DNA from: a virus
DNA length: 64,000 nucleotides
Direction: 5' to 3' (one strand)
Virus record (IMG/VR): IMGVR_UViG_3300029983_000007
Coordinates: 124,001-188,000 of that record
A program made the position numbers and the translations under genes. A model generated the notes under the pieces. That model worked only from the letters and a program-made list of their open reading frames with translations. It did no database searches and was not told where the DNA came from. Below, in pieces: positions 1,887 to 58,264 of this stretch; the first letter of the stretch is position 1; every line of letters begins with the position of its first letter.

Positions 1887-3653
1887 TTAATCAATTGAAA
1901 CGTTATTAACAGGCTTGTATTTGTTAATTAATGTTTCTCTATTACTAAATCCTCTGCTTCTTGGACTCATGATAACAATAGGAGAACTTTGAGCAGCTTT
2001 ATAAACTGAAATTTTCATTTTACTAACAGCAAAATTTACTTGCTCATTCCATTGTTTGATATCATATTTATAAACTTCCTCCATTTTAGGGAAATAGTCA
2101 ATATTTAATGAATGATTTTTATAATCTAAAATCAAATCATCTCGTGTTTTTCTATCTCTAATTAAAGATGCACATATTCCACTTTGCACCCAATAATCAA
2201 TAGGATCTTCATTTGCATCAGGTAATTCTGCTGCAGGTTTAAATTTACCATTATATAAATCAAAAGGTACAATCTCATCTTTATACAATTCTGTGTTTAT
2301 ATAATCTGACAATTCATACAATTCAACTTTTGTCAAATCACCAATAATAGCATGAACACCAATTGATCCAATATCATGAAATGAAGCCCAGCCAAGAACT
2401 ATTTCAGTGTGATTTCCAGTTGATACAATACCACTTTTAAATCTGTGAGTATCTTCTAATCCTAACACAGTTCTTAGTACAGCATGAATTGATGCTTTAC
2501 CTGTATCACTTAATTCAGGTGAATCACTCATATGAATTTTATCAACTTCTAATATTTCATTGACTGTTGATTGAATAGGTTGCCAGTATGTATTTGTTCC
2601 TAATTTTTCGTCTAATTGAGTTACATAATCTTTTGATTTAGTATTCAATGAAGATGGATTAGATATAAATATTGTATGTTCTTTACCCATAGCACGATAA
2701 ACTAATGCTGCTACAATAGATGAATCAAGTCCTCCTGACACATGAACTTGAGCATTTTCAATTCCTGATAATTTGAAAAATTCTTTTTGTTCAAATAGAA
2801 TTGCATCAGTAATTTCTTTATATTTACTATCATCGCTACCTACTATTGGTTCACTTTTTTTTAGTCTGAATGTTTCAGTTGTTTCTTTAAATTTAGGTAG
2901 TTCTTTAACTAATCTACCATAACTATTATAGACAAGAGAACCTCCATCGTAAATTATAATATTTTTAACAATATCTCCACAACCAACAGAATTTAATGAT
3001 ACTACTGGAACCATATTATTTTTTGCAATTTTAGAAAATAAATTTTTTCTGATTTTTTGCTTACCATAATAAAAATATGATTGATTAGGTATAATTAAAA
3101 TTTCTGCCCCCATATTAACCATTTCTTGTGGTATGTCTCTATGATGGTTCATAAACCAAGAATCTTCACAAATTGGTATTCCTATGATAGTTTTACCTGC
3201 ATTTGGTAAGTAAACTTCAAAAACTTTAGTTTCAGTTCCTTCTGTGAAATATTTTCTATCTTCATGATGATCTGTATCTGCTAACAATTGTTTATCATAG
3301 GTACGAATTCCATCTTTATCAATTACCGCTACTGAATTTTTCAATATAGGAAATCCATTTCTGTTATTACCATGTGATGAAACGAATCCAACAATAATAA
3401 TACCATGTAATCCTATTTCTTTTCTGAATTTTTGAATTTCTTTCAATTTTGTGATTTGATCACGAATGAAATCTTCTCTATCCCAAAGAGAACCACAACA
3501 ATAACCACTAATAGCAGTTTCTGGGAAAACTGATATATCTACAAAATTTTTACTATCTAATTTTAAACAATCCATAATTTTTTGGGTATTTCCAATTAAA
3601 TCACCAGTGACTGTATTAATCTGATGTAACGAAATATTTGCATTTTCAATCAT
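1887..3653 (-). CDS. nadE: Glutamine-dependent NAD+ synthetase
   Basis: 588 residues, full length for the two-domain enzyme that amidates deamido-NAD using glutamine and ATP. The N-terminal nitrilase-type glutaminase shows its catalytic triad in context: Glu in FPETAISGY, Lys in YDKQLLAD and Cys in IPICEDSW. The C-terminal synthetase has the ATP P-loop SGGLDSS near residue 306, then STGNHTE and PAAELPDANEDPIDYW. Own promoter at 3681-3712 and terminator at 1835-1872, so it is a single-gene unit. Phage NAD biosynthesis genes are known from other large phages and can offset NAD-depleting defence. An NAD-consuming ADP-ribosyltransferase lies at 16446, but a functional link is inference. Confidence 0.96.
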   Translation of the reverse strand: MIENANISLHQINTVTGDLIGNTQKIMDCLKLDSKNFVDISVFPETAISGYCCGSLWDREDFIRDQITKLKEIQKFRKEIGLHGIIIVGFVSSHGNNRNGFPILKNSVAVIDKDGIRTYDKQLLADTDHHEDRKYFTEGTETKVFEVYLPNAGKTIIGIPICEDSWFMNHHRDIPQEMVNMGAEILIIPNQSYFYYGKQKIRKNLFSKIAKNNMVPVVSLNSVGCGDIVKNIIIYDGGSLVYNSYGRLVKELPKFKETTETFRLKKSEPIVGSDDSKYKEITDAILFEQKEFFKLSGIENAQVHVSGGLDSSIVAALVYRAMGKEHTIFISNPSSLNTKSKDYVTQLDEKLGTNTYWQPIQSTVNEILEVDKIHMSDSPELSDTGKASIHAVLRTVLGLEDTHRFKSGIVSTGNHTEIVLGWASFHDIGSIGVHAIIGDLTKVELYELSDYINTELYKDEIVPFDLYNGKFKPAAELPDANEDPIDYWVQSGICASLIRDRKTRDDLILDYKNHSLNIDYFPKMEEVYKYDIKQWNEQVNFAVSKMKISVYKAAQSSPIVIMSPRSRGFSNRETLINKYKPVNNVSID

Positions 3654-3794: not shown

Positions 3795-6428
3795 TTACAC
3801 TCTTATCAAACGAAGAGGACAACCAAAAGTTTTTAACACTGCAATAGTAGCATTCGTATTAGAATTATAATTTAAATCCATAGCACCACCATTTATAGAA
3901 GCAGTTTCAAAAATAGTCCAAATTAATGATCTGTTATTTAGTGCTTGATTATTAGATGCCCTATAGCCAGTGCCTAATGCACTAAAACCACTACTATTAT
4001 CAGCATTCGTATTTGGAGTTAACCAATAAGTTAGTCCTTCTTTCTTTAGTTTTCCACCTACAACACCAATTCCACCTAAATAAGTACTAAGAGTATTATA
4101 ATTAGCTATATCTGGAACTTTCCAACCCCAAGGAGTTGATGGATTAGCAGCATTATAGTAATCTATGTCCATTTGTAATAATTTAACAGCAAACCAATTA
4201 TATAATTTACCGTATACAGCTCCAATAGCAGCATCATTATTATAATAACACCACATAGCTGCTGCTTTAACTGCTGCATAAGTTTTCTGTTCTACTGTGC
4301 CTGTGGTTTGTGCATAAATAGCATCATACAATTCTTGGGAATTTGACCAACCAACTTCTTGGAGAGATATATTATCTATAGAACCTAAAAATCCACTGGT
4401 ACTATTTATACCTATACTAGTAGATGTAGAAGTAACGTATAGATATCCAGTATATATACCAATACTTGTCTTTAAACCAGTAGGACTACCAAATAAAAGT
4501 TGAACATTTCCACTAATTATATTCTTTATTTCGTATGAGTACTTATACCAAGTATTAATTTTAATTACCATGCCTTGATAGATATAAATTCCATTTGTTG
4601 CTGAATCAATATCTATAAATCCTGATGTATTCCAAGTAGCAATACCCCCATTTAATATCCAATTATTTAAGTTAGTATCAAATCCTCCATTAACAACTTT
4701 TTCAACACTTACATTAGGTTGAACATTATTAATCAAATTACCCCGTGGTGTACATGTCATCTCACAATTAGAAGATTGCCATTGTTGAGTACCAATCGTT
4801 ACATTAGGTATTTCAGGATATAAATTCTTAATAAAATTTGACTCTGCTAAAACTTGCGTAGATGTTAATGCTTGTGAACGTATAATATGAGCTGCTATAG
4901 AACCTTTAAATGGCGTTTGATTAGTAATAGCCGTCATCAAACAACTAAAATTAATAGAAGTTATAACTATTGGTAAAGTTTCAAATAATGTACCATTAAT
5001 ATAAATATCTAGTGTATTATCACCTTTAGCAACTATAGTAATTATTGTATTTTTACCTATTAGAAAATCAACCTTTTTTAATGTTGCTGTTACTTGGGAC
5101 AGTGTATTTCTTATCTTTAAAGTTCCTGATAAATTATCAAATCCAAACAAACTTCCACTACTACTATTGTCACTAGCATAAAAATTGGAAGTAGGTTCCC
5201 TTGATGTTGTAACATTAACTAAAGTAGTCATACTCCAAGCATCCGTAGCGGAAAAACTAATTATTGGATGAATTAAATAATTCTGAGATCCGCTAGGATT
5301 CTTAATATATGGATTTTCATTTGGAGCAATAGTTCCAAGATAAAATGGATATGAAGAACCCCCAACACTAGATAAATCTAAAGGATCACCTGATAATACT
5401 TCTTTAATTGATACATTATCGATACTTAAAGTAGTAGTTCCAACAGCCATTAACCATAATGTTATGCTTGTAGCTACAAAAACCTCTGAAAATATACCAT
5501 TAGTTTTTCTTTGCGTTCCTACTCCAGTACTCGAATTTAACAGAATAGCACCTAATACATAATTAGAAATTTCAAATACTAATTTATATTGTTTTCCAAC
5601 AGTTAATATAGTACTCTGAGTTATATTTATTCCTGATGCTACGTTTAAAAAATTAGCAGTTCCTCCACTAATAGTAATACCTGCTCCTTTACTCCAAACT
5701 GTATCAGTATCAAATCCACCGTTAACGACTTTTTCAACAGTATCTAAAACCTCTGTTCCTTGTGAAGTAATAGAGTAAAGTTTTTTAATATTATTTGATG
5801 TATTAGCAATACTCCCCCCAACACCAAGCCAACCCAGTTTAATAGAATCGTACATATTATTTAACTTACACATTTTAATGTAAGAAGTTGTATTAACTTC
5901 CAATAATTCCCTAACTGAAATATTTTTAAAACTTGCTGATAATCCTAAAGTTGTTGTACTTATAACAAACCCTATGTATAAAACAGTTGAAGTTGAAGTA
6001 AAAATCATTGACGTACTGGAACTTGAAAGTAAAGTGTTATTTACAATAAGATGACTTAATGAGGAGTTTAAAGAAATACGATAAACTGCACTTGTATCGC
6101 CATACAAAAAATCAAAAGATACCTTATACTTTTTTCCTACTTTAGTATTAAAGGCTTGATAGAAATAGCCATAATTATTTGAACCATTGGTAATTTTTAA
6201 ATAACTTGCATCTAAACTTAAAATTGAGGCGTTACCTGTAACCCACCCTTCTATACTACTTCCACCACCATTGGTTACTAACTCAGGTCCGAAATTAGTG
6301 TTATCCCCTAACACTCCACCATCCGCTACAACCCTATCTTTATAGGTATTAAATAGAGATAATGCAGAATTATAAAAATTCCACATTACTCTACCTGCCA
6401 TTGCTAGTTGTTCTCTAAATAAACTCAT
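3795..6428 (-). CDS. Tail fibre tip/adhesin with FISUMP and jelly-roll-like domains
   Basis: 877 residues. At least two internal copies of a carbohydrate-binding-like module begin VVNGGFDT and end SIDN(V/I)S(I/L)(K/Q)EV (about residues 230-345 and 575-690); a related segment lies near residues 50-175. A concanavalin/LamG-like stretch lies at about 360-540, followed by NVTIGTQQWQSSNCEMTC, which is the start of a FISUMP (Fibrobacter succinogenes major paralogous) domain. That domain resumes after a module insertion as AAMWCYYNNDAAIGAVYGKLYNWFAV-type sequence and ends GCPLRLIRV. Last gene of the tail block, 3 bases after the large fibre gene, so probably the receptor-binding tip. No signal peptide. 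The exact receptor is unknown. Confidence 0.75.
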   Translation of the reverse strand: MSLFREQLAMAGRVMWNFYNSALSLFNTYKDRVVADGGVLGDNTNFGPELVTNGGGSSIEGWVTGNASILSLDASYLKITNGSNNYGYFYQAFNTKVGKKYKVSFDFLYGDTSAVYRISLNSSLSHLIVNNTLLSSSSTSMIFTSTSTVLYIGFVISTTTLGLSASFKNISVRELLEVNTTSYIKMCKLNNMYDSIKLGWLGVGGSIANTSNNIKKLYSITSQGTEVLDTVEKVVNGGFDTDTVWSKGAGITISGGTANFLNVASGINITQSTILTVGKQYKLVFEISNYVLGAILLNSSTGVGTQRKTNGIFSEVFVATSITLWLMAVGTTTLSIDNVSIKEVLSGDPLDLSSVGGSSYPFYLGTIAPNENPYIKNPSGSQNYLIHPIISFSATDAWSMTTLVNVTTSREPTSNFYASDNSSSGSLFGFDNLSGTLKIRNTLSQVTATLKKVDFLIGKNTIITIVAKGDNTLDIYINGTLFETLPIVITSINFSCLMTAITNQTPFKGSIAAHIIRSQALTSTQVLAESNFIKNLYPEIPNVTIGTQQWQSSNCEMTCTPRGNLINNVQPNVSVEKVVNGGFDTNLNNWILNGGIATWNTSGFIDIDSATNGIYIYQGMVIKINTWYKYSYEIKNIISGNVQLLFGSPTGLKTSIGIYTGYLYVTSTSTSIGINSTSGFLGSIDNISLQEVGWSNSQELYDAIYAQTTGTVEQKTYAAVKAAAMWCYYNNDAAIGAVYGKLYNWFAVKLLQMDIDYYNAANPSTPWGWKVPDIANYNTLSTYLGGIGVVGGKLKKEGLTYWLTPNTNADNSSGFSALGTGYRASNNQALNNRSLIWTIFETASINGGAMDLNYNSNTNATIAVLKTFGCPLRLIRV

Positions 6429-25890: not shown

Positions 25891-26231
25891 TATATGTTAA
25901 ATTTATTTGCTTCTAATTCATATTCATTCATATTTACTGTACCCATAAATTTATAATTATTAATTTCATAAAAATTATCAGTCAGATTATCTTCATATTC
26001 TGTCCAACCCCATTTATCATCTTCAACATTACCTCGATTTGGATTATATCCAATAAATATATATTTTGAATTAATACTCCTATTACTCAAAAAACCTTTA
26101 ATTCTATTTTCGCTACACTTTATTTGTCTCAAAGAGTCTTCAAATCTTTCATCAGTTGACATTAGCCAATGTCTACATGAATCATATAAATTAGAGTCAA
26201 AAACATCTTCAAATATTTTAATATACTTCAT
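25890..26231 (-). CDS. Tagged protein, tandem family member 3
   Basis: 113 residues. N-tag MKYIKIFEDV, C-tag EANKFNI. The shared body shows HWLMSTDERFEDSLRQIKC, WGWTEYEDNLTDNFY and FMGTVNMNEYELEANKF. Its ATG overlaps the TGA of the upstream homing-endonuclease gene (ATGA at 26228-26231), so the endonuclease sits inside this operon. Confidence 0.75.
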   Translation of the reverse strand: MKYIKIFEDVFDSNLYDSCRHWLMSTDERFEDSLRQIKCSENRIKGFLSNRSINSKYIFIGYNPNRGNVEDDKWGWTEYEDNLTDNFYEINNYKFMGTVNMNEYELEANKFNI

Positions 26232-27868
26232 ATTTTAAATTTTAGGTTACCAGAGTCGTATATTCTGTATATTTTTCTATCAATCATAATTTGATGTTCA
26301 GTTTTATTTTTATCAAAACCTTGCTTGACTAATAAATCTTTTCTGAAGTTAAATCTATGATGTCTGATTCCGTCAATTATATAGTAATAATTTGGTTGTG
26401 TTTTTCCGTCATATTTAAATCCAAGAGTTTCATATAATTTACCTTGACTAAAACTTCTATCAGCGTATGTGGATATTTCATTTGGTTTATAATTTTTCAT
26501 GAAATATTTAAATAATCTTGATGCACCGCCAACAACGTTAGTATTTAATTTATTACAGAAACGTAATAGTTCATATTCACCTTTATTTGTTGATTTTTTA
26601 CCCATTGCTATACGTCTATTACCGAAAGTCATCAGACTAACTAATTCATCATTATAAAATAATCCAATTTTAACTTTTGATCCGACAAATCCTTGAATGT
26701 GATTGGTATCAAGAAATTCTCTAACCAACTTATTGTCAATTATTTCTTTAATTTCGCATTTTCTCGCATATAATTTAATAGTATTTTTACCTAATTTATT
26801 TAATATTATTGATTTAACGATTTCTTGTTTATATAACCAATCATCTTCCCATATATGAATTAATTGTATTCCTTGTTTTTCACACAACTCAGTTTTATTT
26901 AAATGATAATTATTTTCTTTGTGCAATTCATTATGCCAATATACTCCATTGAATTCAAACGCTATTTTTAAATCTGGTATATAAATATCTAATTCATATG
27001 GATTTAAAATAGTTCTATCATTGTATATTATATTAATCTTACAATTGTTTTTTATAAAAATGTGTAATTGAGTTTCATATCCACTATTTGAAAATGATCC
27101 AATTGGATTACATACAGTACAAATAACAGTCTTAGAAATTTTCCTATTATATAAAATATTAGCTACAATATTAAAATTGTGATTTTTTTTACAATCACAT
27201 TTAAATGTATAAATATTATCAATCAATGATATAATATTATTATTTTCATATAATTTTAATATTTTTTTAGTCCTATTTTTTTTTATTTTATCTTTTATTT
27301 CTAAAAATGAAAATGGATTATCAAACCCATGATTTTTTAAATTTGTTTCTTTTATTTTTTCTTTTATTTTTTCTGACTGCATTAGAATACCATTAAATCT
27401 GTCATTCATTGTGTTTTTGAATTTTAATTTAATTTCATTTGATTGCATAGGATTTAATACCTTATAATTATTGAAAGTGGTTTTTTCTTTTTTTAATTTA
27501 ATATCATTTAATTTAGAAACGTTATCAACTCCATATTTTTCTAAACAAGTTCTTTTTGATTTTACTGAATTATTATAATTTTCAACTCCATATTTTTCTA
27601 AGTTGGTTTTTTTAGATTTAAAATTGAAGCATTTTTTACAAGTGTAAATATCATATTTTGATATATTTTTATTATATTTTTGATAAGTTATGATTTTTTC
27701 ATTGTCACAAATGTCACATTTTACCAACAATTTAACCGCACTATTGATTGGTAATTGTGATATCAGTATTTCAATATTATCTCCACTTGATATGTTATTA
27801 TACCATTTTTTATAGTGAGATATTGTTTTATTACTAACTTTTATGTTTATTGTATTTTCTACTATCAT
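26228..27868 (-). CDS. Homing endonuclease, Vsr-like, with GNAT-like C-terminus
   Basis: 546 residues. N-terminal zinc ribbon (VKCDICDNEK...YTCKKC, about 50-80); then reiterated (T/K)xLEKYGVxNxxxS units (about 85-200); a second ribbon (CDCKKNH...CTVCNP); and a Vsr/PD-(D/E)xK-type nuclease (ELDIYIPDLKIAFEFNGVYW, then GIQLIHIWEDDW). The final 200 residues have an acetyltransferase-like look (IGLFYNDELVSLMTFGNRR, VVGGASRLFKYF, LGFKYDG). Homologous throughout to the 45687 gene. Inserted in the tagged-gene operon; its last codons KFKI and TGA merge into the next start. Free-standing homing endonuclease of the Hef-like kind. Confidence 0.85.
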   Translation of the reverse strand: MIVENTINIKVSNKTISHYKKWYNNISSGDNIEILISQLPINSAVKLLVKCDICDNEKIITYQKYNKNISKYDIYTCKKCFNFKSKKTNLEKYGVENYNNSVKSKRTCLEKYGVDNVSKLNDIKLKKEKTTFNNYKVLNPMQSNEIKLKFKNTMNDRFNGILMQSEKIKEKIKETNLKNHGFDNPFSFLEIKDKIKKNRTKKILKLYENNNIISLIDNIYTFKCDCKKNHNFNIVANILYNRKISKTVICTVCNPIGSFSNSGYETQLHIFIKNNCKINIIYNDRTILNPYELDIYIPDLKIAFEFNGVYWHNELHKENNYHLNKTELCEKQGIQLIHIWEDDWLYKQEIVKSIILNKLGKNTIKLYARKCEIKEIIDNKLVREFLDTNHIQGFVGSKVKIGLFYNDELVSLMTFGNRRIAMGKKSTNKGEYELLRFCNKLNTNVVGGASRLFKYFMKNYKPNEISTYADRSFSQGKLYETLGFKYDGKTQPNYYYIIDGIRHHRFNFRKDLLVKQGFDKNKTEHQIMIDRKIYRIYDSGNLKFKI

Positions 27869-41009: not shown

Positions 41010-41837
41010 TTATATAGCTAACTCCAACGGAGATTTTATTTTTTCTATTCCTTCAATTCCAATTATTTCAAAATCATTTATAGTATAATCATAGAAATTT
41101 TTATTCTCTTTTAATATTAATTGTGGTTGAATTTCTAATGGTGTTCTTTCTAATAATTCTTCTAAAGCATCAAAATGTCTATCATATACATGAAGATTTT
41201 GTGTTAAATGACAAAATTTACCAACATTATATCCTAGATGTCCAGCAATCATCATTTGAAATGCCGTATACTGACATTTGTTTATTGCGCCAGCAGTTAA
41301 ATAATCATTGGATCTTTGTGTTAATGTCATATCTAAATAATATTCATTGTTTATTTTTCTAACTGACCATAATGTTTCATATGCACAAGGAAATAAACCT
41401 GGATTTTTAAATTCATCATATTGATACATATTAATAATATGACGACGACCAAATGGATCATTTTTTAATCCTTCTAATAATTTATTCATTAAGTCATATT
41501 TTTTAATAGTATGTCCATACCTATTTCCAATTGTTAAATCTCCAATATTCCACTCGTCCCACCATTTTATTCCAATATCATGGGCTACATCTAATGAGCT
41601 TGTTTGATTTTGATATATCCAAAATATTTCTTTTATTCCAGTTTTTATTGCTGTGTTTCTCAATGTTGGAATTGGAAATTCGCCTTTTGAAATATCATAT
41701 TCCTCAAATACTTGAGTTATAAATTTTGTATAAGCCTCTGTACCATCTTTATATCTTGGTCTTGGATTCTCATCAAAACAACCTTCAGTTTTGATTTTAT
41801 TTAAATTTTCTATGTAATATTTATCTGCTTTATTCAT
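41010..41837 (-). CDS. thyA: Thymidylate synthase
   Basis: 275 residues, full length. Converts dUMP to dTMP with methylenetetrahydrofolate. The catalytic Cys is in LFPCAYETLWSV near residue 151, the variant seen in a Gram-positive and phage subgroup instead of PCH. GRRHIINMYQY carries the phosphate-binding arginines, followed by TLTQRSNDYLTAGAINKCQY and the nucleotide-binding HVYDRH. The Asn in GAINKCQY favours dUMP over dCMP. Supports phage DNA synthesis in an AT-rich genome. 16 bases downstream of the Dam gene in the same leftward unit. Confidence 0.92.
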   Translation of the reverse strand: MNKADKYYIENLNKIKTEGCFDENPRPRYKDGTEAYTKFITQVFEEYDISKGEFPIPTLRNTAIKTGIKEIFWIYQNQTSSLDVAHDIGIKWWDEWNIGDLTIGNRYGHTIKKYDLMNKLLEGLKNDPFGRRHIINMYQYDEFKNPGLFPCAYETLWSVRKINNEYYLDMTLTQRSNDYLTAGAINKCQYTAFQMMIAGHLGYNVGKFCHLTQNLHVYDRHFDALEELLERTPLEIQPQLILKENKNFYDYTINDFEIIGIEGIEKIKSPLELAI

Positions 41838-41853: not shown

Positions 41854-42690
41854 TTAAAAATTCATATATAATGACTCATAAATCATTGAGTCATTGCTAT
41901 TTCCTGTTACTCTTCTGAATGATGAATTACCAGATTTCAAATATTCATGATTAGTATAATTTATAGGTATTTCTATTGTGAAATCATTGCCATCTTTAAT
42001 TTTGCCATCATATGATAATATATATGTAAATTCGTTATTATTTATCCAATTGAAGAAACCATTAGTATCAAAATTACCAAAATACATACCTTTTGTTGCA
42101 TTGTAAGGTGGATCTAAATAGAAAAAATCATCTTTATTGGTATTTTTATATTCATCAAATGAACAATGTTTAAATGTGACATTATTATTGTTTAATAAAT
42201 CTGATGCGCCTAATACAATATCATAAAAAGATTTAGGATTTATGCCTGGCCTTGTAAAGTGACAACTGCTATTAAATTTTCCACTATTGTTATACCTTGG
42301 CATACCATTTGTAGTGGTTCTCATTATGAACATAAAATCTATTGGATTATGTTCTATATTATATCTACTTCTTATTAATTCAAAAAAATCCTTCCTGTGT
42401 TGAATATCTGAATAATTAAACTCAGTCCATAATTCAGTATATCCTTTCATTAACTCTACTGGTTTTTCTTTTATGAAATTCCATAGATTAATTAAATCTT
42501 CATTTAAGTCTGAACATTGAAATTTGTAAAATTTAGATTTATCATCTCTATTTAACAGCTCAATTAAAACAGATGATGAATCACAGAATGGTTCATAATA
42601 TGTTTCAAATGATTTATTAGGTATTTTATTGCAAATGTTTTCAGATTGTGATCTTTTAGATCCACTCCATTTTATTATTTGTTTATTCAT
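41854..42690 (-). CDS. dam: Dam-type DNA adenine N6-methyltransferase
   Basis: 278 residues, D12-class. The N-terminal KWSGSKR motif is followed by the cofactor loop YYEPFCDSSSVLIELL near residue 33. The catalytic DPPY in FFYLDPPYNATKG is near residue 194, with CHFTRPGINPKSFYD between them. The usual FxGxGS of motif I is PFCDSSS here, a tolerated variant. Likely methylates the phage DNA against restriction or marks it. Recognition site not predictable. Overlaps the upstream gene by 8 bases. Confidence 0.9.
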   Translation of the reverse strand: MNKQIIKWSGSKRSQSENICNKIPNKSFETYYEPFCDSSSVLIELLNRDDKSKFYKFQCSDLNEDLINLWNFIKEKPVELMKGYTELWTEFNYSDIQHRKDFFELIRSRYNIEHNPIDFMFIMRTTTNGMPRYNNSGKFNSSCHFTRPGINPKSFYDIVLGASDLLNNNNVTFKHCSFDEYKNTNKDDFFYLDPPYNATKGMYFGNFDTNGFFNWINNNEFTYILSYDGKIKDGNDFTIEIPINYTNHEYLKSGNSSFRRVTGNSNDSMIYESLYMNF

Positions 42691-43464: not shown

Positions 43465-44394
43465 ATGAAATTCACAACTGAAGATTTTGTTATAAAATCA
43501 AAAGATGCTCATGGAGATAAATATGATTATAGTTTAGTAAATTATATAAATAAAAGAAGTAAAGTTAATATAATTTGTCCAATTCATGGAGAATTTGAAC
43601 AAATTGCATATTATCATTATTATTTTAAACAAGGCTGTCAAAAATGTAAAGTAAATAAGCAATTGACAACTGAAGAATTTATAGAAAGAGCAAAATTAAT
43701 ACATGAAGATAAATATGATTATAGTTTAGTAAACTATATAAATGCATATACTAAAGTTGATATTATTTGTAAAAAACATGGAATTTTTTCAATTCGTCCT
43801 GCTGATCATATTAATAATAAGAAAATTAATTGTAGTATGTGTAGTTTAGGATATAAAAAAAATAATAAAATTACAACTGAAGAATTTATTAAACATGCTA
43901 ATGATGTTCATCATTATAAATATAATTATTCAAAAACAAATTATAAAAATTCAAAATGTAAAATAACAATAATTTGTGAAAAGCATGGTGAATTTGAACA
44001 AAATGCTTCAAGTCATATATCAGGTAAAGGTTGTCCTAATTGTAATACAAGTTTAGGCGAAAATAAAATAGAGAATTATTTAAAAAATAATAATATTGCT
44101 ATTGAAAAACAAAAAAAATTTGAATTATGTAAAAATATTAATTATTTGCCTTTTGATTTTTATTTAACTGATTTTAATATTTGTATTGAGTACGACGGTA
44201 TTCAGCATTTTGAAGTAATTGAATATTTTGGAGGTGAAAATAGTTTAAAAGAAAATAAAATAAGAGATAATATAAAAAATGAATATTGTAAAAATAACAA
44301 TATTCATTTAATTAGAATCTCTTATAAAGAAAAAATAGAAGAAAAATTAAATCACGAATTAGCTAATTTTTTAAATAATTCAGATCTTTTTTGA
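43465..44394 (+). CDS. Homing-endonuclease-like protein with three DUF723-type repeats
   Basis: 309 residues. Three tandem units of about 65 residues follow T(T/E)EEFI.(R/H)A..xH..KYDYSxVNY...I.C..HGxF...GC.KC (about 1-65, 66-132, 135-200). These are zinc-finger-like DNA-binding units. The C-terminal nuclease shows NYLPFDFYLTDFNICIEYDG, then IQHFEVIEYFGG and NNIHLIRISYKEK, a Vsr/very-short-patch-repair-like fold. Ends by overlapping the convergent glycosyltransferase gene by 43 bases. Forms a module with the mini HTH gene. Confidence 0.82.
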   Translation: MKFTTEDFVIKSKDAHGDKYDYSLVNYINKRSKVNIICPIHGEFEQIAYYHYYFKQGCQKCKVNKQLTTEEFIERAKLIHEDKYDYSLVNYINAYTKVDIICKKHGIFSIRPADHINNKKINCSMCSLGYKKNNKITTEEFIKHANDVHHYKYNYSKTNYKNSKCKITIICEKHGEFEQNASSHISGKGCPNCNTSLGENKIENYLKNNNIAIEKQKKFELCKNINYLPFDFYLTDFNICIEYDGIQHFEVIEYFGGENSLKENKIRDNIKNEYCKNNNIHLIRISYKEKIEEKLNHELANFLNNSDLF

Positions 44395-45678: not shown

Positions 45679-45705
45679 AAAAGTTTATGTTAATAACAAA
45701 AGAAA
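45679..45705 (+). repeat. 27-bp direct repeat, left copy
   Basis: AAAAGTTTATGTTAATAAC plus AAAAGAAA, identical to 47559-47585, 1880 bp away. The copy contains the ATG of the homing-endonuclease gene. Confidence 0.85.
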
Positions 45706-47573
45706 TTGAAATTTTCAATAAAATTATACCTATATCTGAATTGTCTTTACATAGTCATAAAAAAATTGTGGTTAAATGTGATAATTGTGATACTATTAAA
45801 GAGATTACATATCAATCTTATAATAATTCAACTAATAATAATTCAACTGATTATTATTGTCATAATAAGGAATGCATTAATAAAAAAAGAATAATATCAA
45901 CAAGAGAAAAATATGGTGTTGATAATGTTTCTCAATTAAAAATGATAAAAGATAAAAAAATACAAACATGTTTAGATAATTTTGGTGTTAAATTTCCAAC
46001 TCAATCAGATAAAGTAAAATCGAAAAGTAAAAATACAAATTTAGAGAAATATGGAGTAGAATGGCAAACTCAATCTAATAATTTTAAAGAAAAAAGTAAA
46101 ATTACAAATTTAGAAAGATATGGAACTGAAAGCGCAATGCAATCTGATATAATTAAAAATAAGGTTAAAAATACTTGTTTAATTAAATATGATGTAGATT
46201 CATATATGAAAACATATGATTTTAAAAATAAATCTATAATCACAAATTTGAAAAATTTTGGAGTAAAATATCCATCTCAAAATAATCAGATTCAAGATAA
46301 AATAAAAAAAACTAATATTATAAGATATGGTGTAGAAAGACCAACTCAAAATGAAAAAATAAAAATAAAAATAAAAAATTCATATCAGTATAATTTTGGT
46401 GTAAATAATATTAAAAATGTAAAAAATTTGAAAGATAAATTACAAAAAACTAATTTATACAGATATAATACTGATTTTTATTCTCAGTCTGAACAATATA
46501 AAAAAATAGTTAAAAATAGAAAAATTATTTTATTATCCAAAAAATACAACTTAAAAATTGAAGATATAGTAGATGATAATATTGTATTGGTTTGTGATAA
46601 ATGTGATAATAAATTTGTCGCTACATATCAACAATTATACAATAGATTTCTTTATAATACTCCTTTGTGTACTATTTGTAATCCGATTGAATCTTTGTCT
46701 TATGTTGAAACAGAATTTCAAGAATTTATTTCAAAAAATTATAATGGAAAAATATTTTTAAACAATAGAAAAATAATTAAGCCTAATGAATTAGATGTTT
46801 ATTTACCTGAATTAAATTTAGCGTTTGAATTTAATGGATTATATTGGCATTCCGAACGTTATAAAGATGATAATTATCATTTAATAAAAACTGAAATGTG
46901 TGAAAAATTAGATATACAATTGTTGCATATTTGGGAAGATGATTGGAATTTCAAAAAAGATATAGTAAAATCAATAATATTAAATAAATTAGGTAAAAAT
47001 AGTAATAAAATATATGCCAGAAAATGTAAAATAAAAGAAATAAGTGATACTAAATTACTTAGACATTTTCTTGATACTAATCATATTCAAGGTTATATAA
47101 ATTCAAAAATTAATATAGGTTTATTTTATAATGATGAATTATTTAGCCTGATGACTTTTGGTAGCAAACGAAAGATTATGAATTCTTTGTCCAATGATGA
47201 TGAATTTGAAATCTATAGATTTTGTAATAAATTGAATACTAATATTATAGGTGGAGCTAGTAAATTGTTTTCTTTTTTTATTAAAAATTATAATTTTTCA
47301 AAAATCATAAGCTATTCTGATAGATCATATTTTAATGGTAATAATTATTTAAAATTAGGATTTAAATTTTATAGTAATACGTCTCCAAATTATTATTATA
47401 CAATAAAAGGTAAAAGAGAATATAGATTTAAATTTAGAAAAGATATATTAATTAAGGAAGGTTATGATTCTAATAAGACTGAACAACAAATTATGTTAGA
47501 TAGAAATATTTTTAGAATATATAATTCTGGTAATTTGAAATTTATATATGAAAAAAGAAAAAGTTTATGTTAA
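45687..47573 (+). CDS. Homing endonuclease, Vsr-like, with GNAT-like C-terminus
   Basis: 628 residues. N-terminal ribbon (VKCDNCD...YCHNKEC, about 28-65). About nine reiterated TNLEKYGVxxxTQSxxxKxK units fill residues 70-270. A second ribbon (VCDKCDNKF...CTICNP) is followed by a nuclease with ELDVYLPELNLAFEFNG, LYWHSERYK and HIWEDDWNF. Last comes the GLFYNDELFSLMTFG and GGASKLFSFF C-terminal domain shared with the 26228 gene. It starts inside one 27-bp repeat and stops (KSLC) inside the other. Stand-alone, no tag, inserted between a glycosyltransferase and envelope genes. Confidence 0.87.
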   Translation: MLITKEIEIFNKIIPISELSLHSHKKIVVKCDNCDTIKEITYQSYNNSTNNNSTDYYCHNKECINKKRIISTREKYGVDNVSQLKMIKDKKIQTCLDNFGVKFPTQSDKVKSKSKNTNLEKYGVEWQTQSNNFKEKSKITNLERYGTESAMQSDIIKNKVKNTCLIKYDVDSYMKTYDFKNKSIITNLKNFGVKYPSQNNQIQDKIKKTNIIRYGVERPTQNEKIKIKIKNSYQYNFGVNNIKNVKNLKDKLQKTNLYRYNTDFYSQSEQYKKIVKNRKIILLSKKYNLKIEDIVDDNIVLVCDKCDNKFVATYQQLYNRFLYNTPLCTICNPIESLSYVETEFQEFISKNYNGKIFLNNRKIIKPNELDVYLPELNLAFEFNGLYWHSERYKDDNYHLIKTEMCEKLDIQLLHIWEDDWNFKKDIVKSIILNKLGKNSNKIYARKCKIKEISDTKLLRHFLDTNHIQGYINSKINIGLFYNDELFSLMTFGSKRKIMNSLSNDDEFEIYRFCNKLNTNIIGGASKLFSFFIKNYNFSKIISYSDRSYFNGNNYLKLGFKFYSNTSPNYYYTIKGKREYRFKFRKDILIKEGYDSNKTEQQIMLDRNIFRIYNSGNLKFIYEKRKSLC

Positions 47574-53289: not shown

Positions 53290-55194
53290 TTATTTTATTT
53301 TTTTCTTTAATGAATCAAGTTCTTGTAACCACATATCAGTTTCAGTAGTAGATAATATTTTATCTATCTCAATTTTTATTTTTTCGTAAGTGTCTTTTAA
53401 CTCAGATAATTTTTCTGTTGATAAACTAATTAATGATATATTAATTAAATAATCATAACTATCTTTATACATTTCAATTTTGTTATTTTCAATCTGTGAT
53501 ATTATTTTTTCTTTTGTTTTATTTTCAAAAATTATATCTTTTTTTAATACACAATTGATAAATTTCATTTTATTTATAATATACTTTTTCTGCTCTTCAA
53601 ATTTGTATAATATATTTTTCTTTCTCAAATTATAAAAATTTGTTCTTATTTTAACAAAATCATCAATTATATCATATTGATCTTTATAAAAATATATTTT
53701 ACCTTCTTCATTGAACAAATTCATATTATTAATACTTATATAAGAATCAAGATTGAATTTTTTAATTATCATTTCATCTGTTAATTCACTCAATATATCT
53801 TCTGATATAGTAATTACAATGTTTATGCTATCATCTGTACAATAATTATCATAATCTTTGATGTATTTTTCATCTATGAGTTTATCTAAATATTCAAAGT
53901 ATTTATCATTCCACATCATTATTGGTAATTCTAAAATGCTTAGTTTATTTTTGCCTAATTTCTTAAATATTCCTCTTGATATATATCTTTTATTATTTAA
54001 ATCAGGAATAATTTCACCTTTGAATCCATTATACCAAGGTATTAACTCTATGTTTTTCTTACTCTTTTTCAAATAATTTTGAATATATGTTATTACATCA
54101 GTAGGATTGAATGATGGTATGTTAGTTGACCAACCAGTACCTATACCTTCAGCATTATTTATTAATATCATAGGTATTATTGGTATATAATTTTTTGGCT
54201 CTATTTTGTATCCATCATCAATAAGATATTCTAATAAATCATCATCTTCTGATTTGAATATATATTTAGTTATTTCGTTTAATTTGGTGAATATATATCT
54301 AGGAGCAGATGCGTCTTTTCCTCCTTTTAATCTGGATCCAAATTGTCCTACTGGTTCCAACAGATTTAAGTTGTTTGATCCTATGAAATTTTGAGACATT
54401 GAAATTATTGCTTGTTCTAAAGATGTTGATCCATTATGATATGCTGATAAACTTATAATATCACCACATAATTGGCTTACTTTAATTTCATTTTTAAAAT
54501 TCTTTTTTAGTAAAGTGTAAAGTATTTTTCTTTGAGATGGTTTTAATCCATCTATCATTGATGGTATTGATCTTATATTATCCGCCATACTAAACTCTAT
54601 GAATTCATTATTGAAAAACGAGTCATATGTTTGTTTTGTTTTAAATTTATCAAAATCTACATTAGACTTATAATTTAATAACCATTCTTTCCTATCCTCT
54701 ACTCTTTTTTTGTTGAATGCCAAATCTATCATATCTCTTTCTTTGATTATATCAGATGAGTTGAATTTTATTAAATGCTTATTTAAATCTTTAAAAAATA
54801 ATTTAATCTCAAATGGCTCCAAAGTACCAAGACCTTTTAACCATTTTAAGTGCCATTCAGAATATTCTGTTTTGCTTTTCCATTTTTGATAATCATATGT
54901 ATTATAAAAATATTGTGTTTTACCCTTTTTTGTAGCTTTTACTACTGGGGTAATAAATTGATATAAAAACTCAAGTTGTAATAATTCGGGCCAGTATTTA
55001 TCAAAAAAATTTAGTAGAAGCCCAGATATGTGAGAACCGTCACAATTATGAACCAATATATTATCTATTTTATTTTTAGATATAAAAAACGAATTATCAT
55101 CTTCTACTTTAATGTCATACATTATAGTATCTTTGCTTTCTTTTTTTATTTCATCAATATTTAATATTTCATAATCATTTAGATTTATTTTCAT
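53290..55194 (-). CDS. Topoisomerase II, C-terminal fragment with split-intein C-half
   Basis: 634 residues. Residues 1-50 are the C-terminal half of a split intein: YDIKVEDDNSFFI (block F) and DNILVHN followed by Cys51 (block G). Residue 51 on is CDGSHISGLLLNFF, the second half of the TOPRIM DxDxDG site. Then WLKGLGT, DGLKPSQRKILYTLLK and the cleavage domain with the catalytic Tyr in ASAPRYIFTKL (residue 300; 758 after splicing), ending with a helical gate region and DMWLQELDSLKKK. Spliced to the 56462-58264 product it gives a 1092-residue single-chain enzyme of eukaryote-like type IIA, whereas T4 uses separate gp39 and gp52. Essential for DNA topology in replication. Confidence 0.93.
   Translation of the reverse strand: MKINLNDYEILNIDEIKKESKDTIMYDIKVEDDNSFFISKNKIDNILVHNCDGSHISGLLLNFFDKYWPELLQLEFLYQFITPVVKATKKGKTQYFYNTYDYQKWKSKTEYSEWHLKWLKGLGTLEPFEIKLFFKDLNKHLIKFNSSDIIKERDMIDLAFNKKRVEDRKEWLLNYKSNVDFDKFKTKQTYDSFFNNEFIEFSMADNIRSIPSMIDGLKPSQRKILYTLLKKNFKNEIKVSQLCGDIISLSAYHNGSTSLEQAIISMSQNFIGSNNLNLLEPVGQFGSRLKGGKDASAPRYIFTKLNEITKYIFKSEDDDLLEYLIDDGYKIEPKNYIPIIPMILINNAEGIGTGWSTNIPSFNPTDVITYIQNYLKKSKKNIELIPWYNGFKGEIIPDLNNKRYISRGIFKKLGKNKLSILELPIMMWNDKYFEYLDKLIDEKYIKDYDNYCTDDSINIVITISEDILSELTDEMIIKKFNLDSYISINNMNLFNEEGKIYFYKDQYDIIDDFVKIRTNFYNLRKKNILYKFEEQKKYIINKMKFINCVLKKDIIFENKTKEKIISQIENNKIEMYKDSYDYLINISLISLSTEKLSELKDTYEKIKIEIDKILSTTETDMWLQELDSLKKKIK
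55045..55194 (-). other. Split intein, C-terminal half
   Basis: 50 codons at the start of the topoisomerase C-fragment gene. The conserved C-terminal His-Asn followed by +1 Cys is present (LVHN then C). Confidence 0.9.
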
Positions 55195-55345
55195 CTTTAT
55201 TCATATCTTTTTTTATTAAGTGCTCAATATATTTTGATTTGTTTATATTATTATCTTCACAAATTTCATCTAATATATTATCTAATTCAATATTTATAGA
55301 TACTGATAATGTTTTCTTTTTGTCTGTTATTGTTGGTCTTCCCAT
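55175..55345 (-). CDS. Ribbon-helix-helix protein, leftward
   Basis: 56 residues. MGRPTITDKKKTLSVSINIE is the strand, followed by two helices LDNILDEICEDNNINK and SKYIEHLIKKDM. RHH (CopG/Arc-like) fold. Overlaps the start of the topoisomerase C-fragment gene by 20 bases, so it could be co-transcribed with it. Divergent from a second RHH gene at 55445. The sequence SKYIE(H/Y)LI is shared by all four RHH genes of the window except for minor changes. Confidence 0.75.
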   Translation of the reverse strand: MGRPTITDKKKTLSVSINIELDNILDEICEDNNINKSKYIEHLIKKDMNKDENKSK

Positions 55346-55358
55346 TGTGTTTTTGTTT

Positions 55359-55370
55359 TTATATATAAAA
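55359..55370 (-). promoter_or_regulatory. Candidate phage-type promoter, leftward
   Basis: Minus-strand TTTTATATATAA, 13 bases before the leftward RHH start codon. Faces the element at 55414 in a 99-base divergent region that may be the RHH operator. Confidence 0.38.
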
Positions 55371-55413
55371 TATTAACTAATTTGTTTGAAAATAGATAAA
55401 AATGAAACTTTTT

Positions 55414-55426
55414 TATTTATATATAC
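55414..55426 (+). promoter_or_regulatory. Candidate phage-type promoter, rightward
   Basis: TATTTATATATAC, 18 bases before the ATG of the rightward RHH gene. Confidence 0.42.
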
Positions 55427-55444
55427 TATAAAAATGCTAAGAAT

Positions 55445-55606
55445 ATGAAAAAACCAATCACAAAAAGAAAAGTTTCTATCTCAATAAATAGTGAAGTATA
55501 TAATTATATTGAAGATAGATTTGAAAATAAATCTAAATATATTGAATATTTAATATATCAAGATATATTAAAATGTGGCAAATTAAAAAAAGATATAATA
55601 TTATGA
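55445..55606 (+). CDS. Ribbon-helix-helix protein, rightward
   Basis: 53 residues: KRKVSISINSEVYNYIEDRF, then ENKSKYIEYLIYQDIL. RHH fold without the GRP start of the leftward one. Its TGA overlaps the ATG of the HNH endonuclease (ATGA at 55603). The counterpart in the cassette at the right edge (63689) has the same FENKSKYIEHLIYKD core. Confidence 0.75.
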   Translation: MKKPITKRKVSISINSEVYNYIEDRFENKSKYIEYLIYQDILKCGKLKKDIIL

Positions 55607-56430
55607 TATTAGATACTGAAATATTATTTAATGTGAGTAATAAAAATAAAGCACATTTGATATGCAAAGGTTATGATGTGACTCACAAAGATGTTATAAT
55701 TAAAGTTGAAGATTTGCCTACATATAGTCATTATAAAATAAAAGTAAAATGCGATATATGTGGAACTGAAAAATATTTAGGAAATCATAAATATATGAAA
55801 AACACAAGACTTAATACTAAAGATTATTGTTGTTGTCAAAAATGTGGAGTTAATAAATTACTTGATACATTTAAAGAAAATTACGGGTGTATAAGTAGTC
55901 AACATCCTAATATCAAATTAAAGCAAGAGAAAACAAATATCGAAAGATATGGTAGTAAATCTTGTCAATCAAATAAAGAAATTAAACAAAAATCATATGA
56001 TACTATGATAAAAAAATATGGTGTAAAATATTCATTACAGAATAATGAAATAAAAAAAAAGTTTATGTTAAAAATAGATGATACTGTTAAAAAAACTAAT
56101 ATTACAAAAGTTCAAAGAGGAGTAATGGTAGATTATGATAATTTTAGTTCATTTAAAGATTATAGAAAATTAGTTGATATAGAAACAAGAAGAAACAAAA
56201 AACTATTATATGAAGAATGGAATGGACTTGATTTTTATGATAATGAATATATTGGTGAAAATTTAAATTTAAATTATAGAGATAAATTATATCCATCTAT
56301 AGATCATAAAATATCAATATTGAATGGATTTTTAGATGATATTGATCCTTATAGTATTGGTAATATTACGAATTTGTGTATAACAACAAGAACAAATAAC
56401 TCAAAGAAGAATTCTAAAAATGTGTTCTAA
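55603..56430 (+). CDS. HNH-type homing endonuclease in the topoisomerase gap
   Basis: 275 residues from the ATG overlapping the RHH stop; an upstream frame start at 55573 lies inside the RHH gene. N-terminal ribbon (VKCDICGTEKY...CCCQKCG, about 50-90); two TNIERYGSKS/TMIKKYGVKY units (about 115-160); and an HNH-like C-terminus with LYPSIDHKISILNGF, then IGNITNLCITTRTNNSKKN. Lies between the two intein halves of the topoisomerase on the opposite strand, the arrangement of 'fractured genes'. It probably once targeted the intein site. Confidence 0.82.
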   Translation: MILDTEILFNVSNKNKAHLICKGYDVTHKDVIIKVEDLPTYSHYKIKVKCDICGTEKYLGNHKYMKNTRLNTKDYCCCQKCGVNKLLDTFKENYGCISSQHPNIKLKQEKTNIERYGSKSCQSNKEIKQKSYDTMIKKYGVKYSLQNNEIKKKFMLKIDDTVKKTNITKVQRGVMVDYDNFSSFKDYRKLVDIETRRNKKLLYEEWNGLDFYDNEYIGENLNLNYRDKLYPSIDHKISILNGFLDDIDPYSIGNITNLCITTRTNNSKKNSKNVF

Positions 56431-56442
56431 ATATTATTAAAT

Positions 56443-56476
56443 AAAAGAAAGAGATAAATAATTATCTCTTTCTTTT
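56443..56476. terminator. Bidirectional terminator
   Basis: 14-bp stem AAAAGAAAGAGATA/TATCTCTTTCTTTT, 6-base loop, between the convergent endonuclease and topoisomerase N-fragment genes. It contains the last codons of the intein half. Confidence 0.82.
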
Positions 56477-58264
56477 TAATATTTTATCAGTAATTAATAT
56501 TTCTTTGACTTTTACTAATATAATTTCATTGTTTCTTAATATTGGAATCTCATGATTTTCACTAAATGTATATTCATATCCATTGATATTTAATTTTATT
56601 ATATTAGTCTTGTGAGTTTCAATTATATTGAGTATTTTTTTCCATTCATTGTTGTGTGTTAAAACTTCATCGTCATAATTAATATCTTTTATTGCTACAT
56701 ATCCTCTTTTAGTTAGAACTAACGTATTTTCTTCTATACAATCAGCATCTGTCATCATTATAACTTTACCGTATCTTAATGTTCTTGTTGATGTGTATTG
56801 TTTACCAAATTCTAATCCTAATATTTTTATAATTGAAGTAATTTCATCGTTTTCTCTCATTTTTTGTATAGAAACATCCCTTACATTCAATGGTTTACCC
56901 TTAAGAGGGTATATTCCATAATAGTCATTTCCAACAACTGATAATCCTGCACGAGCTGTTGATTTTGCTGAATCTCCTTCAGTTAGTATTAATCCACATT
57001 TCATGCTATGTGGTTGCTTACCTGCCATATTAGCATCATCAAGCTTCGCTATTTTAACTTTAATTTTCTGATTATTCTGAGTTGATTTCTTAGCATCTTG
57101 TAATTCTTTGAATGATGCAAAATTTACTATGTCATTTTTTATTTGAGATGACATAAGTTTTTTGATAAATGAATCTGAAACAGTTACATCTTTGATGATT
57201 TCAGTTATCATTCTTGTAGTTAGATTTTCTTTTGTTTGTGTTTCAAATGATGGATTAGGAATTTTACAACTAAGAAATAAAAATAAATGATTTTTGATCA
57301 TTGATTGTTTAACGCTTGTTGATTTTATTTTATCATCAAGTGATTTGGTGATTTGATTAGTTATGTAATTAACATGAGTACCTCCAATATGAGTAGATAT
57401 TCCATTTACCATTGATACTTGTTGAAACATATCATTAGGTGTGCGTGCTATACCGACTTCCCAGTTCTCATTTATTTTTTCGTAGAAGAACTCTTCATCA
57501 TCATTGATAAACATCTTCATGTAATCTTTAAATGACTTGATAGGTATTAATACATCATTATAGTAGACTTTAACTCCAGTGCTATAAGCTGCAATGTCAA
57601 TAGCTCGTTTTAAAAATATTGATTGAATTTCATCTGTTATTTCAGTTAGATTAAATTTTTCAAAATCTGGATAATATGTAATTTTTGTGTAATTTTTGTC
57701 TGATGTAGTTATTTTTGGCTTAGTTTTATCAGACATATTATTGGTGAATGTTTGAATGTATTTATGCTTACCATCTGCAGTTTCAATTGTAAATTTCTTT
57801 GAGAATATGTTAGTTGTTTTTATTCCAATTCCATGTGTACCACCAACCATCCTTTTATCATCGTCCGTGAAATTCTCCCCCGTGAGCAAATTTCCGAAAA
57901 TCAACTCACACACATAAATTTTATGTTCTTTGTGCATAACAATAGGTACTCCTGGTCCGTCGTTTTCAATTGTTATGTGGTCTTTATCTACGTTTATCTT
58001 GATGTATTTGACTTGACCATCTGTTCTGATGTAATGATCTGATGCATTGGTTAATGCTTCATCGAATAGTTTAATAAATCCTGCATTATAATTTACTTCT
58101 TTATATACAAATTTGTTGTCTTTAATTTCATTAATATCTTCAAATACATACATTTTGGTTGGTTCAGTATATATATTTCCAATATACATTCCTGGTTTTT
58201 TTAATACGTGTTCAATTGGTGTTAATTTCTTATATCTATCCTCTATTGTTTTTTTATTCATCAA
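56462..58264 (-). CDS. Topoisomerase II, N-terminal fragment with split-intein N-half
   Basis: 600 residues. GHKL ATPase: FDEALTNASDH near 70, NDGPGVPI near 105 and GGTHGIGIKTTNIFS near 140. A transducer domain with QTKENLTTRM follows. TOPRIM starts with LILTEGDSAKST (429) and continues through PLKGKPLNVRDV to VIMMTDAD at 508. The extein ends there, and residues 509-600 are an intein N-half beginning CIEENTLVLTKRGYVAI. Its missing part, CDGSHI, is at the start of the fragment at 53290. The spacing of EGDSAKS...LNVR resembles eukaryotic topoisomerase II more than gyrase. Inactive unless spliced with its partner, because the metal site is cut. Confidence 0.94.
   Translation of the reverse strand: MMNKKTIEDRYKKLTPIEHVLKKPGMYIGNIYTEPTKMYVFEDINEIKDNKFVYKEVNYNAGFIKLFDEALTNASDHYIRTDGQVKYIKINVDKDHITIENDGPGVPIVMHKEHKIYVCELIFGNLLTGENFTDDDKRMVGGTHGIGIKTTNIFSKKFTIETADGKHKYIQTFTNNMSDKTKPKITTSDKNYTKITYYPDFEKFNLTEITDEIQSIFLKRAIDIAAYSTGVKVYYNDVLIPIKSFKDYMKMFINDDEEFFYEKINENWEVGIARTPNDMFQQVSMVNGISTHIGGTHVNYITNQITKSLDDKIKSTSVKQSMIKNHLFLFLSCKIPNPSFETQTKENLTTRMITEIIKDVTVSDSFIKKLMSSQIKNDIVNFASFKELQDAKKSTQNNQKIKVKIAKLDDANMAGKQPHSMKCGLILTEGDSAKSTARAGLSVVGNDYYGIYPLKGKPLNVRDVSIQKMRENDEITSIIKILGLEFGKQYTSTRTLRYGKVIMMTDADCIEENTLVLTKRGYVAIKDINYDDEVLTHNNEWKKILNIIETHKTNIIKLNINGYEYTFSENHEIPILRNNEIILVKVKEILITDKILKRKR
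56465..56740 (-). other. Split intein, N-terminal half
   Basis: 92 codons. Cys1 (CIEENTLVLT, block A), VAIKDINYDDEVLT, then block B-like YTFSENHEIPIL. No endonuclease domain inside. Together with the 50-residue C half it makes a mini-intein of 142 residues. Confidence 0.92.

Follow-up and report, generated by a model that had tools for sequence, protein, structure and literature searches.

In a window of 64,000 nucleotides (bases 124001-188000 of virus record IMGVR_UViG_3300029983_000007, a giant phage record of 330,208 bp; G+C content of the window 24%), the gene for a eukaryote-like topoisomerase II is broken in two inside its TOPRIM metal motif, and each piece carries one half of a split intein at the break. 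We propose, with a probability of about 0.92, that a mobile split-intein cassette resides in this gene, that its halves trans-splice to yield a 1092-residue enzyme, and that the gap between them is a cargo bay with a homing endonuclease and ribbon-helix-helix (RHH) repressors. According to this proposal, the cassette would have invaded the only type IIA topoisomerase gene of the phage. The N-half (extein plus N-terminal intein half, IntN) and the C-half (C-terminal intein half, IntC, plus extein) would be made from separate transcription units, associate via the intein parts and trans-splice by the class 1 pathway, with formation of a Cys1 thioester, transfer to Cys+1 and cyclisation of Asn. 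Splicing would seal D-A-D to C-D-G, restoring the TOPRIM metal site in a single chain of the eukaryotic type. The putative HNH-type homing endonuclease would cut intein-free alleles and copy the cassette in, while the two divergent RHH repressors would probably tune the expression of the endonuclease and the C-half.

The divided topoisomerase gene

The coding sequence is divided into two open reading frames (ORFs) exactly at the intein insertion point, and the break falls between DAD and CDG of the metal motif (Table 1). Pfam matches for the N-extein were DNA_gyraseB (3e-22), HATPase_c (9e-7) and Toprim (4e-5), and those for the C-extein TOPRIM_C (2e-31) and DNA_topoisoIV (4e-105). The joined exteins give 1092 amino acids (aa), and this spliced product forms one continuous alignment across the junction with human Top2-alpha (824 bits, 1e-246) and with yeast Top2 (822 bits, 1e-245); the scores were 297 bits with the African swine fever virus (ASFV) enzyme, 217 with a T4-type large subunit and about 157 with GyrB. 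In the whole record a single gyrase-A-type domain was found, and hence no trace of another, intact topoisomerase. An initial annotation, made from the letters of the window, had placed both ORFs and the splice junction correctly to the residue, including the length of the product. It had also recognised an endonuclease gene between the halves on the opposite strand, for which we found a match to phrog_12131, and it had missed two small RHH ORFs in the gap together with a terminator-like hairpin at the stop of the N-half.

The profile of the joined intein halves, built from four alleles, matches the complete Hint/intein structure 2lwy (2e-5, positions 5-142) and the gp41-1 split intein (7e-4); matches extending over both halves support a Hint fold that the two halves complete. 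The class 1 residues are present, namely C1, the block-B His, the block-F Asp, the penultimate His, the terminal Asn and Cys+1. We strongly infer from these sequences that the two halves trans-splice. The break parts the metal-binding Asp residues (D-x-D from x-D-G), so that splicing is likely to be obligatory for topoisomerase activity, as the initial annotation had proposed, although T4-type phages do tolerate topoisomerase subunits that are separate.

The claim that the enzyme is a eukaryote-like single-chain Top2, and not gyrase-like, is borne out by the bit scores and by a phylogeny of the exteins that covers the ATPase-TOPRIM region. In it the single-chain enzymes of phages group together (99/99) as the sister of human, yeast and a eukaryote-like viral Top2 (90/96), and two-subunit T4-type enzymes and a very long-branched gyrase stand apart from this group. 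The ATPase, TOPRIM and breakage-reunion domains thus lie in one chain that groups with Top2, albeit a chain that is single only after splicing.

Table 1. Features of the divided gene and of the gap between its halves (window coordinates).
Feature	Position	Strand	Remarks
Topoisomerase II N-half ORF	56462..58264	-	600 aa from the listed TTG start; next codon is ATG at 58261
N-extein	56741..58261	-	507 aa from the ATG; GHKL ATPase, transducer, first part of TOPRIM; ends MMTDAD
IntN	56465..56740	-	92 aa; C1, block A, block B with His63 (SENHEIP); Hint_2 2e-4
Topoisomerase II C-half ORF	53290..55194	-	IntC first, then CDGSHI
IntC	55045..55194	-	50 aa; block F (MYDIKVED), block G; terminal residues VHN
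C-extein	53290..55044	-	584 aa from CDGSHI; rest of TOPRIM, TOPRIM_C, breakage-reunion domain
Hairpin	56443..56476	.	15-bp stem over the N-half stop codon, then T-runs on both strands; z = -5.4
Homing endonuclease	55603..56430 (from 55573 by the ORF tool)	+	275 aa; phrog_12131 5e-15, phrog_3339 5e-8
RHH-a	55445..55606	+	53 aa; putative ribbon-helix-helix regulator; ATGA overlap with endonuclease; homologues at same position in L004, L008; no Pfam or PHROG match for the window copy
Divergent intergenic region	55346..55444	.	99 bp
RHH-b	55175..55345	-	56 aa; ribbon-helix-helix/CopG-like; phrog_876 1e-8, RHH_1 0.013; homologues in L004, L008

Occupied alleles, empty alleles and cargo

Relatives were found by scans of viral contigs, and L numbers denote loci taken from them. 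An intein at the same site is present in five further phage contigs, L004, L005, L008, L127 and L088, the last of which holds the N-half only. The site is empty, and the gene an uninterrupted single chain, in L002, L009, L022 (the 735-kb phage LR756501), L090, L092 and L093; the topoisomerases of occupied L008 and empty L022 are 81.6% identical. Cys+1 occurs in all five occupied alleles that include a C-half versus one (L092) of 50 distinct uninterrupted sequences (Fisher p = 1.7e-6, with related sequences treated as independent). L003 also has Cys at this position, though its intein occupies another site. The initial annotation had reasoned that uninterrupted relatives lacking the junction residues would speak against active splicing. 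Such relatives do exist, L002, L009, L022, L090 and L093 being without Cys+1, yet they do not count against splicing because a mobile intein predicts exactly this pattern.

The intein and its host gene have conflicting histories. In the extein tree L005 pairs with L088 (98/96), the window with L004 (95/96) and L008 with L127, whereas the intein tree joins L088 to L127 (97/98). The N-exteins of L005 and L088 are 82.8% identical and their IntN only 36%; between the window and L008 the exteins are 56/53% identical, IntN/IntC 62/68% and the endonuclease 63%. Vertical inheritance of the insert would not give such a conflict. Both marks of a mobile intein, patchy presence and a phylogeny at odds with that of the host gene, were found, and the sequences indicate that the split-intein element is mobile, because intein and extein histories conflict and Cys+1 follows the intein.

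The content of the gap also varies. The window, L004 and L008 carry the two small divergent RHH ORFs, which are missing in L005 and L127. In the window and in L008 RHH-a runs into the start of the endonuclease gene, and in L004 the two adjoin; RHH-b in turn overlaps or adjoins the C-half start in the window and in L004. The endonucleases of the window, L005 and L008 are homologous (63-69%) and that of L004 is unrelated to them. In L008 a further pair of genes (L008:3749-5543) separates RHH-b from the C-half, one for an EcoRI-family restriction endonuclease (5e-15) and one for a D12 DNA methyltransferase (7e-17), and the gap of L127 is short and without cargo. Judged by these alleles, the gap is a swappable cargo bay, the types exchanged being two unrelated endonucleases, an EcoRI-type restriction-modification pair and the RHH regulators.

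Concerning expression, the fold of the hairpin at the N-half stop was matched in stability by no shuffled sequence, and the hairpin probably terminates transcription in both directions where the N-half and endonuclease genes converge. Given this hairpin at the end of the N-half, a separate promoter inside the cassette probably drives transcription of the C-half. RHH-b overlaps the start of IntC by 20 bp, and the start codon of the endonuclease overlaps the stop of RHH-a; the position of the 99-bp divergent region suggests that it probably contains the promoter(s) for RHH-a/endonuclease and RHH-b/C-half.

This layout bears on whether the element is selfish. An active split intein might have been domesticated and kept to regulate topoisomerase assembly, with the C-half made from an RHH-controlled promoter; the overlap of RHH-b with the C-half start, the terminator after the N-half and the retention of the RHH pair in the window, L004 and L008 despite the different endonuclease of L004 would all be consistent with this. 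Nevertheless, we consider domestication improbable, since patchy presence, phylogenetic conflict and cargo exchange indicate ongoing mobility, and L005 and L127 do without the RHH pair. A more speculative extension of the mobile-cassette proposal, which we advance only tentatively, is that the split intein made an essential gene into a protected, regulated docking bay. Swapped cargo would be hard to lose because its loss would take the topoisomerase too, and the RHH pair would time the C-half; if so, the element would control when active topoisomerase exists.

Several observations accompany these alleles. The N-half of L004 (2366-4162) has the TOPRIM motif EGISAQS where EGDSA is expected, which may affect the activity of that allele, and in L127 broken endonuclease-like ORFs lie just upstream of the topoisomerase N-half (5215-5904). 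Two further split inteins occupy a second TOPRIM site (EGD|S) and differ from the intein of the window: the one in L003 (1471-3594) interrupts a single-chain enzyme, directly upstream of which an endonuclease gene lies on the same strand, and the one in L018 (2456-4985) lies in the large subunit of a T4-like two-subunit enzyme, its halves back to back without an endonuclease. Inteins in other phage genes, DNA methyltransferases among them (L013-L017 and L019, found with the IntN profile), were distant and not at the same site, and matches to the topoisomerases of a Campylobacter phage and EniLVp02 extended past the junction but contained no intein. One scan of genome contigs returned only distant two-subunit or gyrase relatives, and a tblastn search with IntN detected no topoisomerase intein among 50,697 phage records.

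Splicing weighed against other readings

Some results weigh against an active intein with an HNH-type homing endonuclease. The curated intein models stay below their cut-offs on the window sequence, TIGR01445 at 16.3 bits (cut-off 24.5), TIGR01443, a weak match to IntC, at 12.5 (15.6) and Hint_2 at 22.1 (28.4). Consequently, the evidence for an intein is that of the joined profile, of the conserved motifs and of the logic of the junction. In addition, block B carries Ser/Gly where Thr is usual and block F is without the common extra His, both of which are tolerated in known inteins. The endonuclease has a predicted zinc-finger-like DNA-binding N-terminus, a match to DUF7487 and, seen by eye, a C-terminal HNH-like motif (IDHK..NL..NNSKK). 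Its AlphaFold model is poor, with a predicted local distance difference test (pLDDT) score of 53 and below 50 in the nuclease domain, so its fold is not established; a PDB search with the endonuclease profile returned nothing meaningful.

The intein halves might be relics, the two fragments acting as a non-covalent two-piece enzyme like T4 gp39/gp60 without splicing. T4-type phages do use separately encoded topoisomerase subunits, and fragmentation driven by endonucleases without splicing is known from T4 gene 39/60 and Aeh1 nrdA. However, C1, the block-B His, the block-F Asp, the penultimate His, the terminal Asn and Cys+1 are invariant in all alleles covering them, even at 36-55% IntN identity. 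The ratio of substitutions points the same way: for IntN, for IntC and for the endonuclease, nonsynonymous divergence (dN) lies well below synonymous divergence (dS) in comparisons with unsaturated dS, and by this measure all three are under purifying selection. Moreover, about 140 intein residues would sit within the TOPRIM metal motif of a relic enzyme. We regard relics as very unlikely, and the split intein in a fractured gene that the initial annotation had described is upheld by the junction, the joined Hint profile and recurrence at the same site in independent contigs.

An assembly error joining two halves, or a decayed gene, might be suspected in a single metagenome-derived record, but the chance is negligible, given that L004, L005, L008 and L127 from other metagenomes show the same arrangement, which rules out an artefact of assembly, that all ORFs are intact and that the record has only one gyrase-A-type domain. 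Joining at the RNA level by an intron was rejected, as no Rfam family reached threshold in the window, both halves are equipped with a start or stop of their own and the gene between them runs on the opposite strand.

Known systems and further observations

Earlier work has described genes that are fractured at split inteins and accompanied by free-standing endonucleases (Dassa et al. 2009, NAR 37:2560, as cited in PMC7090010). Those genes and the one reported here have in common a break at a split intein with an endonuclease gene between the halves; here, by contrast, the host is a single-chain topoisomerase II, the site is DxDxDG, the RHH genes are paired and one allele carries restriction-modification cargo. 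The nucleases of the first description reportedly belong to the Vsr-like EDxHD family, and the window endonuclease is instead a putative HNH-type relative of phrog_12131; we do not take the nuclease family to define the kind. The nucleases of L003 and L004 have Vsr-like tails by eye, and PDB searches with both gave nothing meaningful. Split inteins of the gp41-1 and IMPDH-1 type likewise have a split Hint domain, class 1 chemistry and a short IntC, yet they are not close in sequence, gp41-1 with its profile match included. In phage T4 a homing endonuclease has fragmented the topoisomerase gene 39/60, which carries a mobE insertion; unlike the gene of the window, gene 39/60 has no intein and its fragments are separate subunits. 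The GyrB intein of Synechocystis lies in the TOPRIM domain of a bacterial gyrase near EGDSAGG and is contiguous, being nearer to the second site of L003 and L018 than to that of the window.

The window enzyme shares with the eukaryotic/viral Top2 clade (Guglielmini et al. 2022, doi 10.1093/ve/veac097, as cited in PMC10458455) the single-chain order ATPase-TOPRIM-breakage/reunion, and differs from eukaryotic Top2 in being without the long C-terminal tail and encoded in two pieces. Citations in PMC10458455 and PMC11005426 point to a literature on the viral origin of eukaryotic Top2. Our literature searches found no report of topoisomerase split inteins, although an earlier one may exist. Genes fractured in this way are of a known kind; as far as the searched literature and the 50,697 phage records show, the topoisomerase II host gene and the DxDxDG site are new. 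Within the same scope, the putative HNH-type nuclease with a paired RHH module, the competition of two intein lineages for one site and the exchangeable cargo, which includes a restriction-modification pair, are also new. With this case a type IIA topoisomerase joins the hosts of split inteins; the cut lies within its catalytic metal motif, and the enzyme belongs to the phage lineage nearest to eukaryotic Top2. Furthermore, as a single site offers alleles with the cassette, without it, with exchanged cargo and with no cargo, the origin, spread and cargo uptake of split inteins can be tested directly, and the intein halves are candidates for new orthogonal trans-splicing tools.

A second fractured gene of the same phage encodes IMPDH (G000:C1:63803-65374, minus strand; L046:2804-4375). 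It is split at GIGGG|CFTPS, with an IntC ending GIVVHN|SLCTTR and about 95 bp without an endonuclease between the ORFs; its split intein resembles the known IMPDH-1 intein. Several small proteins starting MKIR.GFVSNSSSSSF cluster around this gene (L046, G000:61000-69000). In L014 (5785-7272) a small gene of a phage structural region contains a split intein whose IntC half is fused to a nuclease-like domain. The N-terminal part of the cassette endonuclease has several paralogues in the same genome, and homing-endonuclease genes are numerous, both in the window (26228-27868, 43465-44394 and 45687-47573) and elsewhere in the genome. The window also encodes an NAD synthetase (1887-3653), a thymidylate synthase (41010-41837) and a D12 DNA methyltransferase (41854-42690).

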